From contig JAGBXG010000120.1 in the NCBI GenBank assembly GCA_017629415.1, positions 1 through 5,190 on the forward strand: a stretch of DNA of 5,190 nucleotides, in the 5' to 3' direction. Every line of letters starts with the position of its first letter. Position 1 is the stretch's first letter. This stretch comes from Pseudomonadota bacterium (GTDB lineage: Bacteria; Myxococcota; Bradymonadia; UBA4248). Under the pieces are notes generated by a model. That model had not been told where the DNA came from. It saw only the letters and a program-made list of their open reading frames with translations, and searched no databases. Positions 1 to 5,190 of this stretch are shown piece after piece. Position numbers and translations under genes: made by a program.

Positions 1-352
1 AACGGAATGTCAATCCGAATGATGGATGTTGGACGGTGATTTCACGTTTGTTTGTGTCGAGTGCGTATGTCAATTGTGAGTTAGCCATGAGTTGATCGAG
101 CATCGTCCAGTTAAAATTGATACCGACACCGACTCCCATATCGAATCGGAAGAGTGCGGAAAGCTGAAGTCCGCCGGCAACATCAAAGAGCGGATTACCG
201 AGTGATTCTTTTTCGAGTGAGCTATTACCGCCGCCGAGTTTTCCGAGGAGTTCAAATTGTACTTCTTCCGCTTGGGCGGTTTGAGATGTAGTCATGCTGG
301 CAAAAGAGAAGAACAAGACAAACGCGAGAAGTGTTAGAAAATATTTTTTCAC
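1..352 (-). CDS. Secreted beta-barrel-like envelope protein, 3' part outside the window
   Basis: This gene reads leftward from a GTG start at 352-350, and the 117 complete codons inside the window contain no stop. The product begins with a clear Sec signal peptide: Lys2-Lys3, a hydrophobic core at about residues 4-18, and a probable signal peptidase I site after Ala-Gln-Ala (residues 26-28, before Glu-Glu). The mature part has Gly-rich stretches that alternate hydrophobic and polar residues (e.g. GGLQLSALFRFDMGVGVGIN at 60-79), typical of transmembrane strands of outer-membrane beta-barrels. There is no lipobox. GTG was chosen because it alone keeps the whole signal peptide and has an AGGAGA ribosome site 6 nt upstream. 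The next in-frame ATG (Met20) would destroy the signal. The gene is divergent from the M74 endopeptidase gene. Family and function are not recognised; the barrel assignment is inference from sequence pattern, and the signal peptide is secure. Confidence 0.82.
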   Translation of the reverse strand, partial: MKKYFLTLLAFVLFFSFASMTTSQTAQAEEVQFELLGKLGGGNSSLEKESLGNPLFDVAGGLQLSALFRFDMGVGVGINFNWTMLDQLMANSQLTYALDTNKREITVQHPSFGLTFR

Positions 353-358
353 AATGAA

Positions 359-364
359 TCTCCT
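359..364 (-). promoter_or_regulatory. Shine-Dalgarno AGGAGA for the leftward GTG-start gene
   Basis: On the minus strand AGGAGA lies 6 nt before the GTG codon at 352-350. It is a strong purine-rich ribosome site and supports the non-ATG start. Confidence 0.75.
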
Positions 365-414
365 ATATGCGGGCAAAACATAAAAATTTGCACCAAAACG
401 TTTAATCGGTTTCC

Positions 415-443
415 ATAATATCATGTAGTGTTTAGTTTTATAA
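415..443 (-). promoter_or_regulatory. Possible leftward promoter for the barrel-like protein gene
   Basis: The minus strand reads TATTAT at 420-415, a 5 of 6 match to the -10 consensus. The -35 position 16-18 nt upstream falls inside the inverted repeat at 430-450 and has no good TTGACA match. This would leave a 5' leader of roughly 55 nt. It is weak as a promoter on its own and is suggested mainly by the symmetric arrangement with the rightward TATTAT. Confidence 0.3.
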
Positions 444-450
444 ACTAAAC
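430..450. promoter_or_regulatory. Perfect 9-bp inverted repeat, candidate operator between divergent genes
   Basis: The arms GTTTAGTTT (430-438) and AAACTAAAC (442-450) are exact reverse complements separated by TAT. The element lies in the 146-bp gap between two divergent genes, roughly midway between a leftward TATTAT (415-420) and a rightward TATTAT (457-462), so it covers both -35 regions. Size and symmetry fit a site for a dimeric regulator of TetR, MarR or similar type; no regulator gene is in the window. It has no GC-rich stem or following U-run, so it is unlikely to be a terminator. Confidence 0.55.
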
Positions 451-462
451 CGTTCTTATTAT
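434..462 (+). promoter_or_regulatory. Possible rightward promoter for the M74 endopeptidase gene
   Basis: TATTAT at 457-462 matches the -10 consensus at 5 of 6 positions and lies about 36 nt before the ATG at 499. The -35 window (434-439 at a 17-nt spacer) reads AGTTTT, a poor match, and overlaps the inverted repeat at 430-450. A weak -35 overlapped by a palindrome suits either an activated or a repressed promoter. Confidence 0.35.
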
Positions 463-498
463 AGCATACTTAGCAATGAATCACGATGGATAATCCCC

Positions 499-2343
499 AT
501 GAAATATCGAAAAATATGGCATCAAGCGATTTTAATGTCTGTTTGTTTCAGCCTTTTGGGGTGTAATTCTGCGCATTCTGGGGAGCTTTCTGATGGGGAA
601 GCGTTGGTCGTATCGGATTGGCATCGCAGTGCAGAGATTCGGCGCAGGCCGTCATATGCGACGCCTGAGGTTTATCGTGCATTTTATATTCGCGCAGCGG
701 AATCCGCGATGCGTGAGCCAGCATCTGTGTTGCATCGCAAGTTTTTTGTGACAGAACACGAGCGTGAAATGTCGTTTTCGGTGGGCGACACACGTGATGG
801 GTATATGGTGAATGGACGACCTCTGCCTGCGCCAAGTCTTTTGCTTCGTCAGCTTCCGGTTCAATATGAGCGTGGTTTAGCCTATGCGACAACGGATATG
901 GTTGAGTTGTTTGTAGATACAGCTCGTGCGATGGAGAAGAAGTATCCGGGTACAATCATGTATTTGGGGAATATGGCGGCACGTGAGGGCGGAGATATTC
1001 CTTATTCTGTCAGTCATAATGCCGGGCGCGATGCGGATATTGGATTTTATTTGAAAGATGCCGAGGGAAAATTCGCCCATCCTCAAAATTTACATAAGAT
1101 CAATCGCAGGTTTCAATCCCGTGAGGAGGGGCCTGTTTATACGTTTGATCTTGAAAAGAACACGACGCTGATTGAGTTATTGCTGACCCATCCCAAGGTG
1201 AGAGTGCAGTTTATTTTCTTGGCCAAACATTTGAGAACTGCGATTTATCGTGAGTTAGTTGCGCGTGGCAGTTCTCCTGAGCTTTTGGAACGTTTTGAAA
1301 TGAGTGTGCAAAATCAGGCTGCTCATGATGATCATTTTCATGTTCGAATCTATTGTTCGAATTCAGATATTTGTGCCGGCTGTGTAGATAAATCTGTGAT
1401 TCATCCGTGGCATGAGGATCCGTTGCCCAAGCGTGAACAATGTGTTGCACGGTATGCTTCGATGCTGAAAAAAAGCAAAACAGAACCAGAGAGCAAGGCC
1501 GTGGCACTTCAGCGTTTGGCATTGCTTGGGGCTGCATCGGCAAATGAAAGTCAGATAATCAAGCATTTAGGGCACGAAAATTCGGAAGTGCGTCTGGCCG
1601 CAGCCATGGCGGCGTCTGAGCTTTCATCTGGGGTGACGCAAGCATTGGTCAAACAATTGGCGAAAGAATCCCAACCGTCTGTCAGATTGGCATTGATTCA
1701 GACGCTTTCGGGATTTGATACGGCGCAGACGCGGCAAACCTTTATGGAAGAAATCGTTCGCCGGACTTCACAAACGGATGCCGGATTTGCAGATGAGGAG
1801 ATGCAAACTATCTTTCATTTCATCATTCGGCATCCCCATGCCAATAATGCGAAACCTTTGCTTGATGCCATGCACGCCGCAGCCCGGCATGCGTTAAGCG
1901 ACACCAAAGCCTTTGAGGCTGTTGCCCACACTTTTGGCGTTGTCGTTAACATGGCTGTGAAACCGACACTGGCCGAAATGCTGGCTCATGCCGATGCCTG
2001 GTTTGCTGAACATGGCACTCAAACGCGTCAGCAATGGCTCATAGACGGATTTAAACGCGAAGGATTTCAAGTCACAAATCTCGAAAATGCCGATATTCCC
2101 ATTCTTTTGGATGCCATTGATGGCCCGGCTGAGATTTCATTGAACGCGCAGCTGCAGCTAAAAAAAATCAGTCGGCTTAAACAAGATTCTCTAAGTTGGC
2201 CTGTGGCAGATGCACGATGGCATTACACGCGATATTTTAAACGCAGAGCTAAAAAATTCCGTATTGATTTGAGTGATCGCAATGAACGCGGCATCAAATT
2301 TGTGGCAACCGAGGAAAACTCGAGTTCTCAAAAAAATCCCTGA
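499..2343 (+). CDS. Lipoprotein M74 (MepA-type) murein endopeptidase with C-terminal HEAT-like repeats
   Basis: The 614-aa product probably cleaves peptide cross-links in peptidoglycan. Residues 1-22 are a lipoprotein signal peptide ending in LLGC (lipidated Cys22). Residues of about 100-300 match the penicillin-insensitive murein endopeptidase family (M74). SHNAGRDAD contains His173 and Asp180, with the same 7-residue spacing as zinc ligands His113 and Asp120 of E. coli MepA. HDDHFHVRIYC contains His276, His279 and His281, matching MepA His206, His209 and His211, and is followed by the family's Cys-rich tail (Cys286, Cys292, Cys295). All metal and catalytic positions are therefore present. 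MepA itself is only about 270 residues. Here another 300 follow, with Ala/Leu-rich HEAT-like helical repeats at about 331-420 (e.g. NSEVRLAAAMAASELSSG) and a helical, unassigned C-terminus ending in a basic stretch. The ribosome site is weak (GATGGA, 8 nt upstream). Alternative upstream ATGs are out of frame or stop quickly. The lipid anchor suggests attachment to the inner face of the outer membrane (inference). Confidence 0.9.
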   Translation: MKYRKIWHQAILMSVCFSLLGCNSAHSGELSDGEALVVSDWHRSAEIRRRPSYATPEVYRAFYIRAAESAMREPASVLHRKFFVTEHEREMSFSVGDTRDGYMVNGRPLPAPSLLLRQLPVQYERGLAYATTDMVELFVDTARAMEKKYPGTIMYLGNMAAREGGDIPYSVSHNAGRDADIGFYLKDAEGKFAHPQNLHKINRRFQSREEGPVYTFDLEKNTTLIELLLTHPKVRVQFIFLAKHLRTAIYRELVARGSSPELLERFEMSVQNQAAHDDHFHVRIYCSNSDICAGCVDKSVIHPWHEDPLPKREQCVARYASMLKKSKTEPESKAVALQRLALLGAASANESQIIKHLGHENSEVRLAAAMAASELSSGVTQALVKQLAKESQPSVRLALIQTLSGFDTAQTRQTFMEEIVRRTSQTDAGFADEEMQTIFHFIIRHPHANNAKPLLDAMHAAARHALSDTKAFEAVAHTFGVVVNMAVKPTLAEMLAHADAWFAEHGTQTRQQWLIDGFKREGFQVTNLENADIPILLDAIDGPAEISLNAQLQLKKISRLKQDSLSWPVADARWHYTRYFKRRAKKFRIDLSDRNERGIKFVATEENSSSQKNP

Positions 2344-2370
2344 ACCATGAGACTTTTATGATAAGTCCGA

Positions 2371-2448
2371 GGGGACAAGCCCACGGCGTACGCAAAGTTC
2401 TTTTGTGGCTTGAGCCCCAAAACTCGCCAAGGGGCTCAAGCCCCTTGG
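2371..2448. repeat. GC-rich segment with competing hairpins, possible dispersed intergenic repeat
   Basis: Three related arms occur in 78 bp. Arm 2 (GGCTTGAGCCCC, 2407-2418) and arm 3 (GGGGCTCAAGCC, 2431-2442) pair perfectly over 12 bp with a 12-nt loop. Arm 3 can instead fold on itself with its flanks: CCAAGGGGC (2427-2435) and GCCCCTTGG (2440-2448) give a perfect 9-bp stem with a TCAA loop. Arm 1 (2371-2384) also pairs with 2405-2418, with one small internal loop and one bulge. The segment contrasts sharply with its AT-rich flanks. No T-run follows, so it is not a standard terminator. The style resembles REP-like intergenic repeats, but only one copy is visible here, so the repeat call is inference. 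Confidence 0.5.
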
Positions 2449-2592
2449 AACCCACCATAGATTTGATGTTTTTGTTAGTGAGCCGGGCACTGATAACACG
2501 CGTTTTTTGGAAAAATGGGGACTGCTTACCGTCAAATCTCGTGTGCAAGCACCTAAAAACTGTCAATTCATGATTCATTGTTTTTTCTAGTC

Positions 2593-2621
2593 TTGAAAGC
2601 AAACATGGAGCGAACTAAACT
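2593..2621 (+). promoter_or_regulatory. Candidate sigma70-type promoter of the lipoprotein/radical SAM cluster
   Basis: TTGAAA (2593-2598, 5 of 6 to the -35 consensus) is separated by exactly 17 nt from TAAACT (2616-2621, 4 of 6 to the -10 consensus). Transcription would start near 2628, giving a leader of about 34 nt before the ATG at 2662. This is the best promoter match in the gap upstream of the cluster. Confidence 0.5.
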
Positions 2622-2637
2622 GAGGATGGGTGTTTTT

Positions 2638-2652
2638 TTATGTCATACATAA
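2638..2652. promoter_or_regulatory. Small palindrome in the leader, touching the ribosome site
   Basis: TTATGT (2638-2643) and ACATAA (2647-2652) are perfect reverse complements separated by CAT. The right arm overlaps the first bases of the ribosome site AAGGTG (2651-2656), which lies 5 nt before the ATG at 2662. It could be a protein-binding site downstream of the transcription start, or a weak hairpin modulating ribosome access. AT-rich 6-bp arms also arise by chance. Confidence 0.3.
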
Positions 2653-2661
2653 GGTGTTATT

Positions 2662-3372
2662 ATGCATTTAAAGAAAATTTTTAAGCTGGTTTCAAGTCTT
2701 GGTGCTTTAGTTGGATTAAGCAGTTTCATGACGGGATGTGATGATGAATCGATAGAATATCCTATTCACGGTACCGGGGATGCGCATCGATGCTGTGTGG
2801 GATTGGATTCAGAAGCTTACGATGCCTGTATTCAGGATTACCAAGGCAGCAATCGTTGTGATGTGAATGTGGCGCTCTATGGTGTTCAAGTGCCGGATCC
2901 TATTATTCCTGGTACAAAGCCGGCCATTGAAGAATGCTGCGGCGTGTTGAGCGGTGCTGAATACGAAGCCTGTGTTGAGGATTACAAGGCCGTCGGTTCC
3001 TGCAACAGCAATATTTCCGACCCTGAAGCTGATGTTTATGGACCGCCTCCTGTAGATGAAGTCCCCGTGGATGAAGCGATGGAAGAATGCTGTGGCGCTC
3101 TTTCTGGGGAAGCTTATGAAGCTTGTGTTGAGGATTACAAGGCCGCCGGTTTTTGCGATATGAACGTGTCTTTATATGGCGTGCCTGAGCCTGATCCCAA
3201 TGAACCGCCTGTCATTGATGAACCCGTGGATGAAGCAATTGAAGAATGCTGCGGTGATCTCGGTGGCGAAGCTTACGAAGATTGTGTTGCGGAATACAAA
3301 GAGGCAGGAGCGTGTACTTTGAGTTCAACCGTTTATGGGGTGCCGTCGGTTCCGCCGGATGAGGATGAATAA
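2662..3372 (+). CDS. Cysteine-rich repeat lipoprotein, likely substrate of the adjacent radical SAM enzyme
   Basis: The 236-aa product has a lipoprotein signal peptide (Lys4-Lys5, hydrophobic core, lipobox FMTGC, lipidated Cys26) followed by Asp27 and Asp28. The rest is four tandem modules with exact spacing CC-x10-C-x9-C: Cys44/45/56/66, 92/93/104/114, 143/144/155/165 and 196/197/208/218. Modules 2-4 share the core pattern ECCGxLxGxxYExCVxxYKxxGxC. Each module is followed by a Tyr-Gly motif (YGVQ at 73, YGPP at 126, YGVP at 172, YGVP at 225), then an acidic Pro-rich linker. All 17 Cys except the lipidated one belong to the modules. The protein is strongly acidic. The ribosome site AAGGTG is 5 nt before the ATG. 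I recognise no named domain. Proximity to the radical SAM gene and a shared design with the second lipoprotein suggest that it is post-translationally modified. Alternatively the cysteines form periplasmic disulfides and the protein is structural or binding. Confidence 0.9.
   Translation: MHLKKIFKLVSSLGALVGLSSFMTGCDDESIEYPIHGTGDAHRCCVGLDSEAYDACIQDYQGSNRCDVNVALYGVQVPDPIIPGTKPAIEECCGVLSGAEYEACVEDYKAVGSCNSNISDPEADVYGPPPVDEVPVDEAMEECCGALSGEAYEACVEDYKAAGFCDMNVSLYGVPEPDPNEPPVIDEPVDEAIEECCGDLGGEAYEDCVAEYKEAGACTLSSTVYGVPSVPPDEDE
2791..3357 (+). repeat. Four tandem coding repeats with CC-x10-C-x9-C and YG(V/P) signature
   Basis: The repeat cores run at about 2791-2901, 2932-3060, 3085-3198 and 3244-3357. 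The distance between successive CC pairs is 48, 51 and 53 codons. Repeats 2 and 3 are closest at DNA level: an identical 22-bp stretch occurs at 2971-2992 and 3124-3145. Repeat 1 is the most divergent (VGLD in place of GxLxG). Repeat 2 has a 5-residue insertion between its last Cys and its YG motif. The order of similarity suggests stepwise internal duplication. Confidence 0.85.
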
Positions 3373-3409
3373 ACGCTCAAACATACCGAATTCTTAGGAT
3401 ATTTTACCG

Positions 3410-3466
3410 GCAGTCTTAACTCTTTTTGAAGTGAAGACTGCATCATTAAAAAATTGAGGAGTCTTC
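3410..3466 (+). promoter_or_regulatory. Possible RNA switch in front of the radical SAM gene
   Basis: The 94-nt gap between the first lipoprotein and the radical SAM gene holds a perfect 8-bp inverted repeat, GCAGTCTT (3410-3417) with AAGACTGC (3434-3441). It is extended by ACT/AGT after one mismatch. The right arm can pair alternatively over 7 bp (GAAGACT, 3433-3439) with AGTCTTC (3460-3466), which touches the end of the ribosome site TGAGGAG (3455-3461) and abuts the ATG at 3467. The two pairings exclude each other, one leaving the ribosome site free and the other burying it. No T-run follows the first stem, so it is not an intrinsic terminator. Function is inference from pairing only. Confidence 0.4.
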
Positions 3467-4564
3467 ATGCCTGATCTTCGTCTTATGATTTATCGCGCGA
3501 TGATGTGGAAACGTCACCAAATTCGCAGTGCCATGAATCGCGATGAGCACGAGTTGCGTTATTTGTTTTTTGAGGTTTCTCGCCGGTGTAATATCAGTTG
3601 CAAGTATTGCGGCAGCGATTGTACTCTTGAGGAACGTGCGGCTGAACTCACAACCCAGCAATGGTTGGATATCATCGATCAGCTTGCTGAAGATTTTGAT
3701 CCCAAACGCGTCATGATTGCAGTCACTGGCGGCGAACCGCTGTTCAGACCCGGGATTTTTGATATCTTTGCCCGTTTGCACGAACGCGGTTTTCATTACG
3801 GCATGGTGACGAATTCAACCTTGCTCAATGCAGAAGCGGCGCGTCGTCTTGTGGAATGTGGGATGGATTCGATTTCGCTCTCATGCGACAGCATTCCCGA
3901 GGTGAATGATGCCATTCGTTGTCCCAATGGTTCCCAACATGTTGTCAATGCGATTCGGAACTTGCGAGCCGCGGGTTATAAAGGCATTTTGGAGATTTTA
4001 TCGACGATTACCAAGCCTTGTATGCCGCATCTTGAGGCGATGCGCGATTGGGTTCAGGCTCAAGGCATTACGCGCTGGCGTGTTGCGCCCGTTATTGCAA
4101 TTGGACGTGCAGCTGAAAATTCAGAACTCGTTTTAGATGATAACGATGTGAATACGATTCTTCAATTCGTTCGTCATCAACGCCGTGTTTTGCCGGGTAT
4201 GCGCGTTGAATTCAGTGAAGAAGGCTATGTGGGCGATGATTATGAAGGCCTTGTGCGTCCCTATCTGTGTCAATGTCGCGCCGGTATTAATGTAGGCGGC
4301 ATTCGTTACGATGGTAAAATCGGGGCATGCCCTGAAATTTCACAAGTTTTTGATCAAGGCGACATTCTCAAAGAACGTTTTTCTGAAGTTTGGAACTCCA
4401 GATATCAAGATTTTCGTGATCGCAGTTGGACGCGCCATTTAGGACCTTGTCGATATTGCGATAAATTCAAGATTTGTCAGGGTGGTGCGATGCATTTATA
4501 CGAAGATAAAAACACGCCGACAGCAAGATGTTTCTATGAAATGATAGAACGTGCAAAATCCTAA
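3467..4564 (+). CDS. Radical SAM/SPASM enzyme of rSAM/lipoprotein type
   Basis: The 365-aa product is a cytosolic radical SAM enzyme, probably a peptide-modifying one. Cys41, Cys45 and Cys48 form CxxxCxxC, which binds the 4Fe-4S cluster that cleaves S-adenosylmethionine; a GSDC with Cys52 follows. TGGEP at 87-91 is the SAM-contacting motif. The C-terminus has a SPASM-like region for auxiliary clusters: Cys268, Cys270, Gly283-x4-Cys288, then Cys328-x2-Cys331-x5-Cys337 and Cys355. The Cys expected four residues after Cys337 in classical SPASM is Ala341. From memory, the segments HELRYLFFEVSRRCN and CQGGAMHLYEDK...CFYEM resemble the 'rSAM/lipoprotein system' enzyme family (TIGR04133), known chiefly from Bacteroidetes, whose members sit beside a lipoprotein. 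The ribosome site TGAGGAG lies 5 nt upstream of the ATG, supporting this start. The second lipoprotein starts 17 nt after the stop, and lipoproteins on both sides are the obvious candidate substrates. The reaction cannot be read from sequence. Confidence 0.9.
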   Translation: MPDLRLMIYRAMMWKRHQIRSAMNRDEHELRYLFFEVSRRCNISCKYCGSDCTLEERAAELTTQQWLDIIDQLAEDFDPKRVMIAVTGGEPLFRPGIFDIFARLHERGFHYGMVTNSTLLNAEAARRLVECGMDSISLSCDSIPEVNDAIRCPNGSQHVVNAIRNLRAAGYKGILEILSTITKPCMPHLEAMRDWVQAQGITRWRVAPVIAIGRAAENSELVLDDNDVNTILQFVRHQRRVLPGMRVEFSEEGYVGDDYEGLVRPYLCQCRAGINVGGIRYDGKIGACPEISQVFDQGDILKERFSEVWNSRYQDFRDRSWTRHLGPCRYCDKFKICQGGAMHLYEDKNTPTARCFYEMIERAKS

Positions 4565-4569
4565 TTAGC

Positions 4570-4575
4570 AAGGAA
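4570..4575 (+). promoter_or_regulatory. Ribosome site of the second lipoprotein gene
   Basis: AAGGAA lies 6 nt before the ATG at 4582 and within 11 nt of the radical SAM stop codon. It fixes the start of a gene that is open at the right edge and supports co-transcription or translational coupling with the enzyme. Confidence 0.65.
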
Positions 4576-4581
4576 CTTCTC

Positions 4582-5190
4582 ATGTTTGAAACTACACAAA
4601 AGCTATTAAAATTTGCGTTTGGCACATTGGCATCATTGGGTACTTTGTTTACGGCAACAGGCTGTGATGAACATGCATTTCATGCCACAAAACTGGAAGT
4701 TCCGGAATGTTGCCAAAAAATTCAGGATGCAGGCGATGAACCAGGGTTTCGTGAATGTCTGAAACTTTATGCGGAAACCGGCTTGTGTGCCTTGTCACCA
4801 GGTGATGATTTTCCCGGACCTTCTGTGATGTATGGTCCTGAACCTGTGGATCCTACGCCAGATCCTGAATCTTGTGATTTCGTCAATCCCTATTGTGAAA
4901 CACAGGAAATGGCAGTCGAATGTATCGATAATAAGAAGGTTTACAGCACTTGTTATTTTTGTGAAGCCTATAAAAAAGCCTTGTATTGTTACGATGCGGG
5001 CAATACCATTTATGGACCGCCGCCTGCCGAAGTAGGTGAACCGTGTTTTGGGGCTACTTCATACTGTGATGCCTGGCAAAATGCCGTTCATTGTGAAGAT
5101 GGCCTTGTTACAAAATATGAGGAAGGCTGTTACAGGGGAGAGTGTTCTGTAGATTCTGCAGGCAATATTTCCTGTTTAAAACGCACCGAT
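4582..5190 (+). CDS. Second cysteine-rich lipoprotein of the cluster, 3' part outside the window
   Basis: Two hundred and three codons are visible without a stop. The signal peptide ends in the lipobox TATGC (lipidated Cys28), with Asp29 following. Region A repeats the design of the first lipoprotein: ECC (Cys43-Cys44), 14 residues, Cys59, 9 residues, Cys69, then YGPEPVDP at 84-91. Region B uses a different pattern, Cys98-x6-Cys105-x8-Cys114-x9-Cys124-x2-Cys127-x8-Cys136, followed by YGPPP at 144-148. Region C begins the same way (Cys155-x6-Cys162-x8-Cys171), continues with Cys183, Cys188 and Cys198, and reaches the window edge. The gene starts 17 nt after the radical SAM stop and is likely in the same operon. 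The signal peptide aligns without gaps to that of the first lipoprotein (Lys, Lys, Ala, Gly and TGCD in register). No named family is recognised; the role as a modification substrate or partner of the radical SAM enzyme is inference. Confidence 0.87.
   Translation, partial: MFETTQKLLKFAFGTLASLGTLFTATGCDEHAFHATKLEVPECCQKIQDAGDEPGFRECLKLYAETGLCALSPGDDFPGPSVMYGPEPVDPTPDPESCDFVNPYCETQEMAVECIDNKKVYSTCYFCEAYKKALYCYDAGNTIYGPPPAEVGEPCFGATSYCDAWQNAVHCEDGLVTKYEEGCYRGECSVDSAGNISCLKRTD

Follow-up and report, generated by a model that had tools for sequence, protein, structure and literature searches.

A tyrosine-glycine tag associates lipoproteins with a radical SAM/SPASM enzyme of Myxococcota and suggests a splicease-like modification system

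A 5,190-nucleotide stretch of DNA from a bacterium filed as Pseudomonadota (GenBank assembly GCA_017629415.1, contig JAGBXG010000120.1, positions 1 to 5,190; Myxococcota, Bradymonadia, UBA4248 in GTDB), hereafter the window, encodes a radical S-adenosylmethionine (SAM)/SPASM enzyme between two lipoproteins, which we call A and B. We propose, at a probability of about 0.6, that these three proteins constitute a splicease-like system for the modification of surface proteins, in which A would receive ketoamides at four positions and B at two or more. NCBIfam already names the combination of such an enzyme with a lipoprotein, under a hypothetical-equivalog label, and our literature search found no paper that names the nearest enzyme family, TIGR04133, or describes the pairing. 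The XYG motif present in both lipoproteins points to a reaction for it.

The lipoproteins and their XYG tags

All three genes lie on the forward strand. Lipoprotein A, the proposed substrate, occupies 2662-3372 (236 amino acids (aa), 17 Cys, lipobox MTGC with Cys26), the enzyme 3467-4564 (365 aa), and lipoprotein B, the proposed second substrate, begins at 4582 and runs past the window end at 5190 (203 aa and 17 Cys within the window, lipobox ATGC with Cys28); both lipoboxes were assigned by eye, without a signal-peptide program. Calling of open reading frames (ORFs) leaves gaps of 94 nucleotides (nt) between A and the enzyme and 17 nt between the enzyme and B. Together with the Pfam matches given below, it confirms the arrangement described in the first-pass annotation of this DNA, namely a SPASM-type radical SAM gene flanked by two lipoprotein genes on the same strand, with 17 nt before the second.

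A motif scan of this strand found four CC-x10-C-x9-C modules in A (2791-2859, 2935-3003, 3088-3156 and 3247-3315), each followed by a YG[VP] site: ALYGVQVP (2878-2883), DVYGPPP (3037-3042), SLYGVPEP (3175-3180) and TVYGVPSVP (3334-3339), respectively. The part of B inside the window holds one CC-x14-C-x9-C module (4708-4788) and two YGP sites, VMYGPEP (4831-4836) and TIYGPPP (5011-5016). When the residues of each mature protein were shuffled 20,000 times, four YG[VP] sites were reached in 2/20,000 shuffles of A and four Cys modules in 1/20,000, while two YG[VP] sites were reached in 130/20,000 shuffles of B; the single Cys module of B was reached in 1,800/20,000 and is thus weak on its own. 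This shows that the motifs of A and the YG sites of B exceed what is expected from composition. The CC-x(n)-C-x9-C modules and YG(V/P) motifs that had earlier been noted in both lipoproteins hence stand, with that reservation for B.

The two lipoproteins resemble each other weakly (29.5% over 122 columns; E 8e-5 when the two sequences alone are compared), and neither has a credible match in NCBIfam or Pfam. Relatives of A are P0121-P0124, and a 99% identical relative of B, P0126, is 244 aa long and has an extra CC module beyond the point where the window ends. In P0125 an acetate-kinase-like N-terminus (Pfam PF00871) is fused to the last module of lipoprotein A, by either chimaeric assembly or recombination. 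The structure prediction for A is poor (mean predicted local distance difference test score (pLDDT) 53, predicted template-modelling score 0.20); in this low-confidence model helix pairs coincide with the Cys modules, with the YG sites in or next to linkers of low confidence.

The tag as a signature of partner proteins

A homologue search for the enzyme returned 270 sequences at E <= 1e-30, of which the best 120 were listed, and a scan of a genome collection yielded 62 loci. We treat L001-L043 (at least 29% identity) as the family and L044-L062 as controls encoding remoter radical SAM enzymes, the boundary (L043/L044) having been set after the list was seen. A YG(x)P-bearing ORF on the same strand and at most 1.5 kb from the enzyme is present at 37/43 family loci as against 7/19 controls; 2 of the 37 look spurious (a 61-aa ORF at L010 and a 691-aa enzyme-like ORF at L037), and L002, L010 and L039 have nearly no upstream sequence. 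The density of YG(x)P per 1000 aa is 1.94 near the enzyme and 0.13 far from it in the family, versus 0.24 and 0.09 in the controls. Under a longest-ORF rule, which missed the partners of L021, L024, L028 and L031, XYG is present in 36/43 of the ORFs taken.

Dipeptide ranking and Tyr-replacement counts were subject to the same rule and omitted L002 and L039. In the untargeted ranking of enriched dipeptides, YG heads the list for the larger Myxococcota group and is third both in the window group, behind CC and CG, and in the group of Bacillota, archaea and Patescibacteria, behind PP and GP. In the remaining group, of Bacteroidota, Spirochaetota, Nitrospirota and Acidobacteriota, CY leads, because the tag there directly follows the lipobox Cys, and YG is outside the eight dipeptides listed. 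When other residues replaced the Tyr of the motif and near ORFs were compared with far ones, Y gave 107 sites and a 36-fold enrichment, F 1 site (0.6-fold), H 1 site (0.5-fold) and W 3 sites (4.7-fold); the enrichment of the tag, about 36-fold, is tyrosine-specific. Pro stands at +1 or +2 in 107/130 YG sites, the partners at L033 and L037 having CYG without Pro, and Tyr is preceded mostly by Y, L, V or F, with E, A, C, W and I also seen. Cys makes up 7.6% of near ORFs in the window group and 3.6% in the second Myxococcota group, and shows no rise in either non-Myxococcota group (0.8% near versus 1.1% far, and 1.2% versus 1.4%). As the enrichment of Cys is confined to the two Myxococcota groups, we regard the Cys modules as a local elaboration and XYG as the widespread mark. 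For the same reason we rejected the Cys modules as the defining mark of a substrate, the part in which the Cys-rich repeats had first been cast.

In the window branch the partners are tandem-module lipoproteins (L001, L003, L005, L020, L041), and those of Clostridiaceae are lipoprotein-like ORFs 63-73 aa long. The anticipated lipoprotein neighbours of homologues are thus borne out as tagged partner ORFs at most related loci, but not as lipoproteins throughout, since the partners in Patescibacteria and Methanocella resemble, by eye, small transmembrane proteins. The possession of two substrates, once thought distinctive, is not so: four adjacent tagged lipoproteins lie upstream of the enzyme at L003, and genomes G002 and G003 encode tagged lipoproteins on other contigs as well. 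Lipoproteins beside TIGR04133 enzymes (over the cut-off or so annotated) read AMYGMPIA (L093), CPPLYGAPEY (L063), CEYGSPHA (L117) and CYGMPENY (L116), and the partner in an unannotated Phocaeicola record (L118) reads CEYGTPSA. Two matches to TIGR04134, the lipoprotein model that accompanies TIGR04133, are without the full tag, L101 reading ACYGIVID and the YG of L102 lacking Pro.

Two further observations concern the form of the tag. At L090 each of two overlapping neighbour ORFs bears five or six XYG tags, most of them continuing with Ile or Val and then Trp or Phe and without the usual Pro. At L032, L033, L034, L037, L038, L042, L043, L073, L114 and L116 the tag abuts a lipobox or lipobox-like Cys (AACYGTP, SACYGLPPC, TSCYGMP), in the TIGR04133-like group and in the group around PlpX, the enzyme of the PlpXY splicease, alike; the residue to be modified would there be the cysteine itself, which is presumed to be lipidated.

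The enzyme and its relation to spliceases

The enzyme exceeds the Pfam cut-offs for Radical_SAM (81.7 bits) and SPASM (29.8 bits). Its CxxxCxxC cluster motif is CNISCKYC at 3587-3610 on the forward strand, with GS next, and C41, C45, C48, G49 and S50 are invariant across 39 aligned sequences, its own included. The predicted fold (mean pLDDT 93.3) is matched by Foldseek to SkfB, PqqE, anSME and SuiB; this is the common radical SAM/SPASM fold, so the structure leaves the reaction undecided. An N-terminal helix spans residues 4-27 of the model and might take the place of PlpY, the partner protein of the splicease enzyme PlpX. Among NCBIfam models TIGR04133 scores highest (295.8 bits, E 3.6e-88; curated cut-off 425 not reached), followed by TIGR04103 (109.2 bits; cut-off 725 not reached) and heme b synthase (108.9 bits). 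Neither A nor B matches TIGR04134 at E <= 1, and in the related genomes G001-G005 a search with this model gave no match at E <= 0.01.

The window system was consequently not filed as TIGR04133/TIGR04134. The kinship with TIGR04133 suggested by the first-pass annotation is sound in that this is by far the nearest named family, though the enzyme stays below its cut-off, and the idea of a TIGR04134-type partner falls. Trees of 73 and of 46 proteins place the window branch, composed of Myxococcota and of metagenome-assembled genomes (MAGs) titled Proteobacteria, inside a well supported TIGR04133-like group (100/97 and 100/99), the nearest rows being MAGs from ruminant gut and UBA4248. The notion of the same enzyme class in another lineage holds in part, the enzyme belonging to a separate branch within this group. 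In genome G003 a true TIGR04133 enzyme (486.5 bits) coexists with an orthologue of the window enzyme (308.4 bits). The TIGR04133-like superfamily was seen in Myxococcota, Bacteroidota, Spirochaetota, Bacillota, Nitrospirota, Acidobacteriota, Patescibacteria and a methanogen.

PlpX (IPR026482 in the splicease paper) is presumably a member of TIGR04103, and a Nostoc enzyme over the cut-off of this model (853 bits) adjoins a Nif11 precursor with a C-terminal ALYGLPPELF. According to PMC10533398 the natural sites of PlpXY are MYG and LYG and the engineered tags PIRPLYGLPI or PIRPGYGLPI, and splicease activity is further treated in PMC11002830 and PMC10373908. The ten best TIGR04103-like matches in Myxococcota, all under the TIGR04103 cut-off, have YGxP-bearing, apparently membrane-anchored neighbours in 8/10 loci, with none seen at L107 and L108. 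By eye, the partners at L105, L106 and L109-L114 mostly show a zinc-ribbon-like CxxC..CPFC, a hydrophobic stretch leading to a lipobox-like Cys, and YGxP tags. The sequence CGS after the third cluster Cys is common to the clade of the window enzyme and the PlpX-like clade, and a G[YF]xG..E-like motif before the SPASM region is found in most rows of both, the Bacteroidota, Spirochaetota and Nitrospirota rows deviating. An exclusive clade of TIGR04133-like and PlpX/GDL enzymes was neither found nor rejected (approximately unbiased test, p-AU 0.095). Transfer of function from PlpX by whole-protein hidden Markov model score was rejected, as TIGR04103 scores no better than the heme b synthase and mycofactocin models. 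A search of four genomes for heme b synthase gave no match over the cut-off and three weak CGS-bearing ones, which were retained in the tree as AhbD-like rows.

Proposed mechanism and alternatives

We infer that the enzyme works like a splicease because the two clades share the tag, the kind of partner, CGS and, for the most part, the G[YF]xG..E-like motif. Before export, it would recognise the tags, Xaa-Tyr-Gly(-Xaa)-Pro, of both lipoproteins; the tyrosine of each tag would be excised as a tyramine equivalent, the backbone rejoined and Xaa (Leu, Val, Leu and Val in A, Met and Ile in the part of B inside the window) converted to a ketoamide residue. The Cys modules are probably separate disulfide-held spacers, which would distance the electrophilic ketoamides along the envelope-anchored protein. 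In the end the ketoamides might, for example, capture proteases in a reversible covalent manner or inhibit them. PMC11117315 and PMC10373908 describe spliceotide products as inhibitors of proteases, a role for which the hydrophobic residue in front of each tag in A and B would be suitable, with covalent anchoring or cross-linking equally possible.

Several observations weigh against a splicease-like reaction. 1) The tag is not universal: at L004 no tagged partner is adjacent, a lipoprotein-like protein with three YGPP tags (L155) lying on another contig of that genome; none was seen at the L018 or L027 loci; and the lipoprotein beside the true TIGR04133 enzyme of G003 has no YG. 2) The enzyme falls outside the PlpX clade, and its TIGR04103 score is about that for heme b synthase; the mycofactocin model (L006) and the heme b synthase model (L028) even outscore TIGR04103. 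The grouping of the TIGR04133-like and PlpX clades reaches only 96/79 with 4 outgroup rows and 94/70 with 8. 3) CGS also occurs in L120 and L126-L128, and the latter three fall beside PlpX in the tree, yet their neighbours have no YG(x)P tag. 4) PlpX works with a partner, PlpY, according to PMC10373908; PlpY is termed a truncated RiPP recognition element (RRE) in PMC11002830 and described as too small for a true RRE in PMC12710340. A phmmer search of ORFs under 250 aa in the window and at the loci other than L115 and L044-L062, using as query a small protein that follows the Nostoc enzyme and was taken for PlpY from its position, found no convincing PlpY-like ORF; two weak matches (E 0.049; L029 and L076) apparently represent one place, and none is in the window, where there is no room for such a gene beside the enzyme. 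5) PlpXY accepted 2/16 of the FtsZ tag and site combinations tabulated in PMC10533398, so that the tag alone is insufficient and context matters.

An unlikely but serious alternative is that the enzyme performs another chemistry on the tagged Tyr, without excision of tyramine, such as a C-C or ether cross-link (cyclophane-like), oxidation, epimerisation or decarboxylation. The tag would be Tyr-specific whatever the type of reaction, the separate clade and the lack of a convincing PlpY in the window and surveyed loci suit this reading, and Tyr chemistry is known from other radical SAM enzymes, as in mycofactocin (PMC8326336). Against it, the tag agrees with that of spliceases in its Gly after Tyr and its frequent Pro, and the PlpX-like enzymes have the same kind of partner. 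We give little credence to the possibility that the YG tags are a mere recognition or export sequence and another residue is altered, for instance near the lipobox, or that the pairing is incidental. The abutment of tag and lipobox Cys in one branch would suit it, but up to eight YG sites are spread along one protein (L003, L008, L022), which fits a modification site better than a single recognition site. Least probable of all is thioether formation on the Cys modules in the manner of a sactipeptide or ranthipeptide system: many SPASM enzymes form thioethers, and A as well as B contains 17 Cys, some of them in regular modules, but partner Cys is not enriched outside the two Myxococcota groups, Myxococcota partners at L007, L008, L009, L015 and L016 hold 0-2 Cys while XYG persists, and CC/C modules would be expected to form disulfides once exported.

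Returning to the splicease-like reading, we regard a broader version of it as possible, at somewhat less than even odds: the TIGR04133-like superfamily would be a second, PlpY-independent splicease clade acting on membrane-anchored surface proteins, cell-surface ketoamides would be widespread, and one branch would splice at the lipobox Cys (CYG). Such proteins may already be included in a paper by Scott et al. 2022, which deals with widespread ribosomal beta-amino acid peptides and proteins. The present proposal supplies a concrete candidate reaction for a radical SAM/lipoprotein pairing so far labelled hypothetical, and it carries the splicease tag beyond small leader-bearing peptides, to membrane-anchored proteins built of repeats in several phyla. 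If it is correct, many bacteria would display electrophilic ketoamides on envelope proteins, possibly as protease inhibitors or covalent anchors, and these loci would be a source of spliceases that may do without a partner protein.

Further features of the locus

Between lipoprotein A and the enzyme lies a hairpin (3410-3441) with an 8-bp stem, GCAGTCTT/AAGACTGC; the intergenic stretch folds with z -2.0, equal stability being reached in 6/200 shuffles, and the hairpin could reduce expression of the enzyme relative to that of its substrate. In both lipoproteins an Asp directly follows the lipobox Cys. This is an inner-membrane retention signal in E. coli, a rule that may not hold in this lineage. 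A further product of the window (499-2343) is lipoprotein-like and combines an M74 penicillin-insensitive murein endopeptidase domain with HEAT repeats.

Comparison with known systems

The window system has in common with the PlpXY splicease a radical SAM/SPASM enzyme, an XYG site of which a substrate may have several, and the CGS and G[YF]xG..E-like motifs; moreover, PlpX-like enzymes of Myxococcota have similar YGxP partners. It differs in that its enzyme belongs to a separate clade, with no PlpY seen in the window and surveyed loci, and in that its substrates would be lipoproteins, whereas those of PlpXY are peptides with Nif11 or nitrile-hydratase-like leaders. With TIGR04133/TIGR04134 it shares the nearest enzyme family and adjacent lipoprotein genes, on both sides in the window, and several TIGR04134 lipoproteins likewise bear XYG(x)P after the lipobox. 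In contrast to that pair, the window enzyme is under the model cut-off, its partners combine tandem Cys modules and tags without matching TIGR04134, and some loci of its kind have several tagged partners per enzyme. The enzymes of the GDL motif peptide/TIGR03913 system group with the PlpX-like ones and not with the window clade, and the DUF1843 peptides beside them are short and without a lipobox, unlike the window lipoproteins. Near their N-terminus, 2/5 of these peptides have PYG (L121, 787-999; L119, 3741-3911), 2/5 LYAA or MYAA and 1/5 neither; the PYG, together with the grouping of the GDL-type enzymes with PlpX, hints that the same chemistry operates in this system too.

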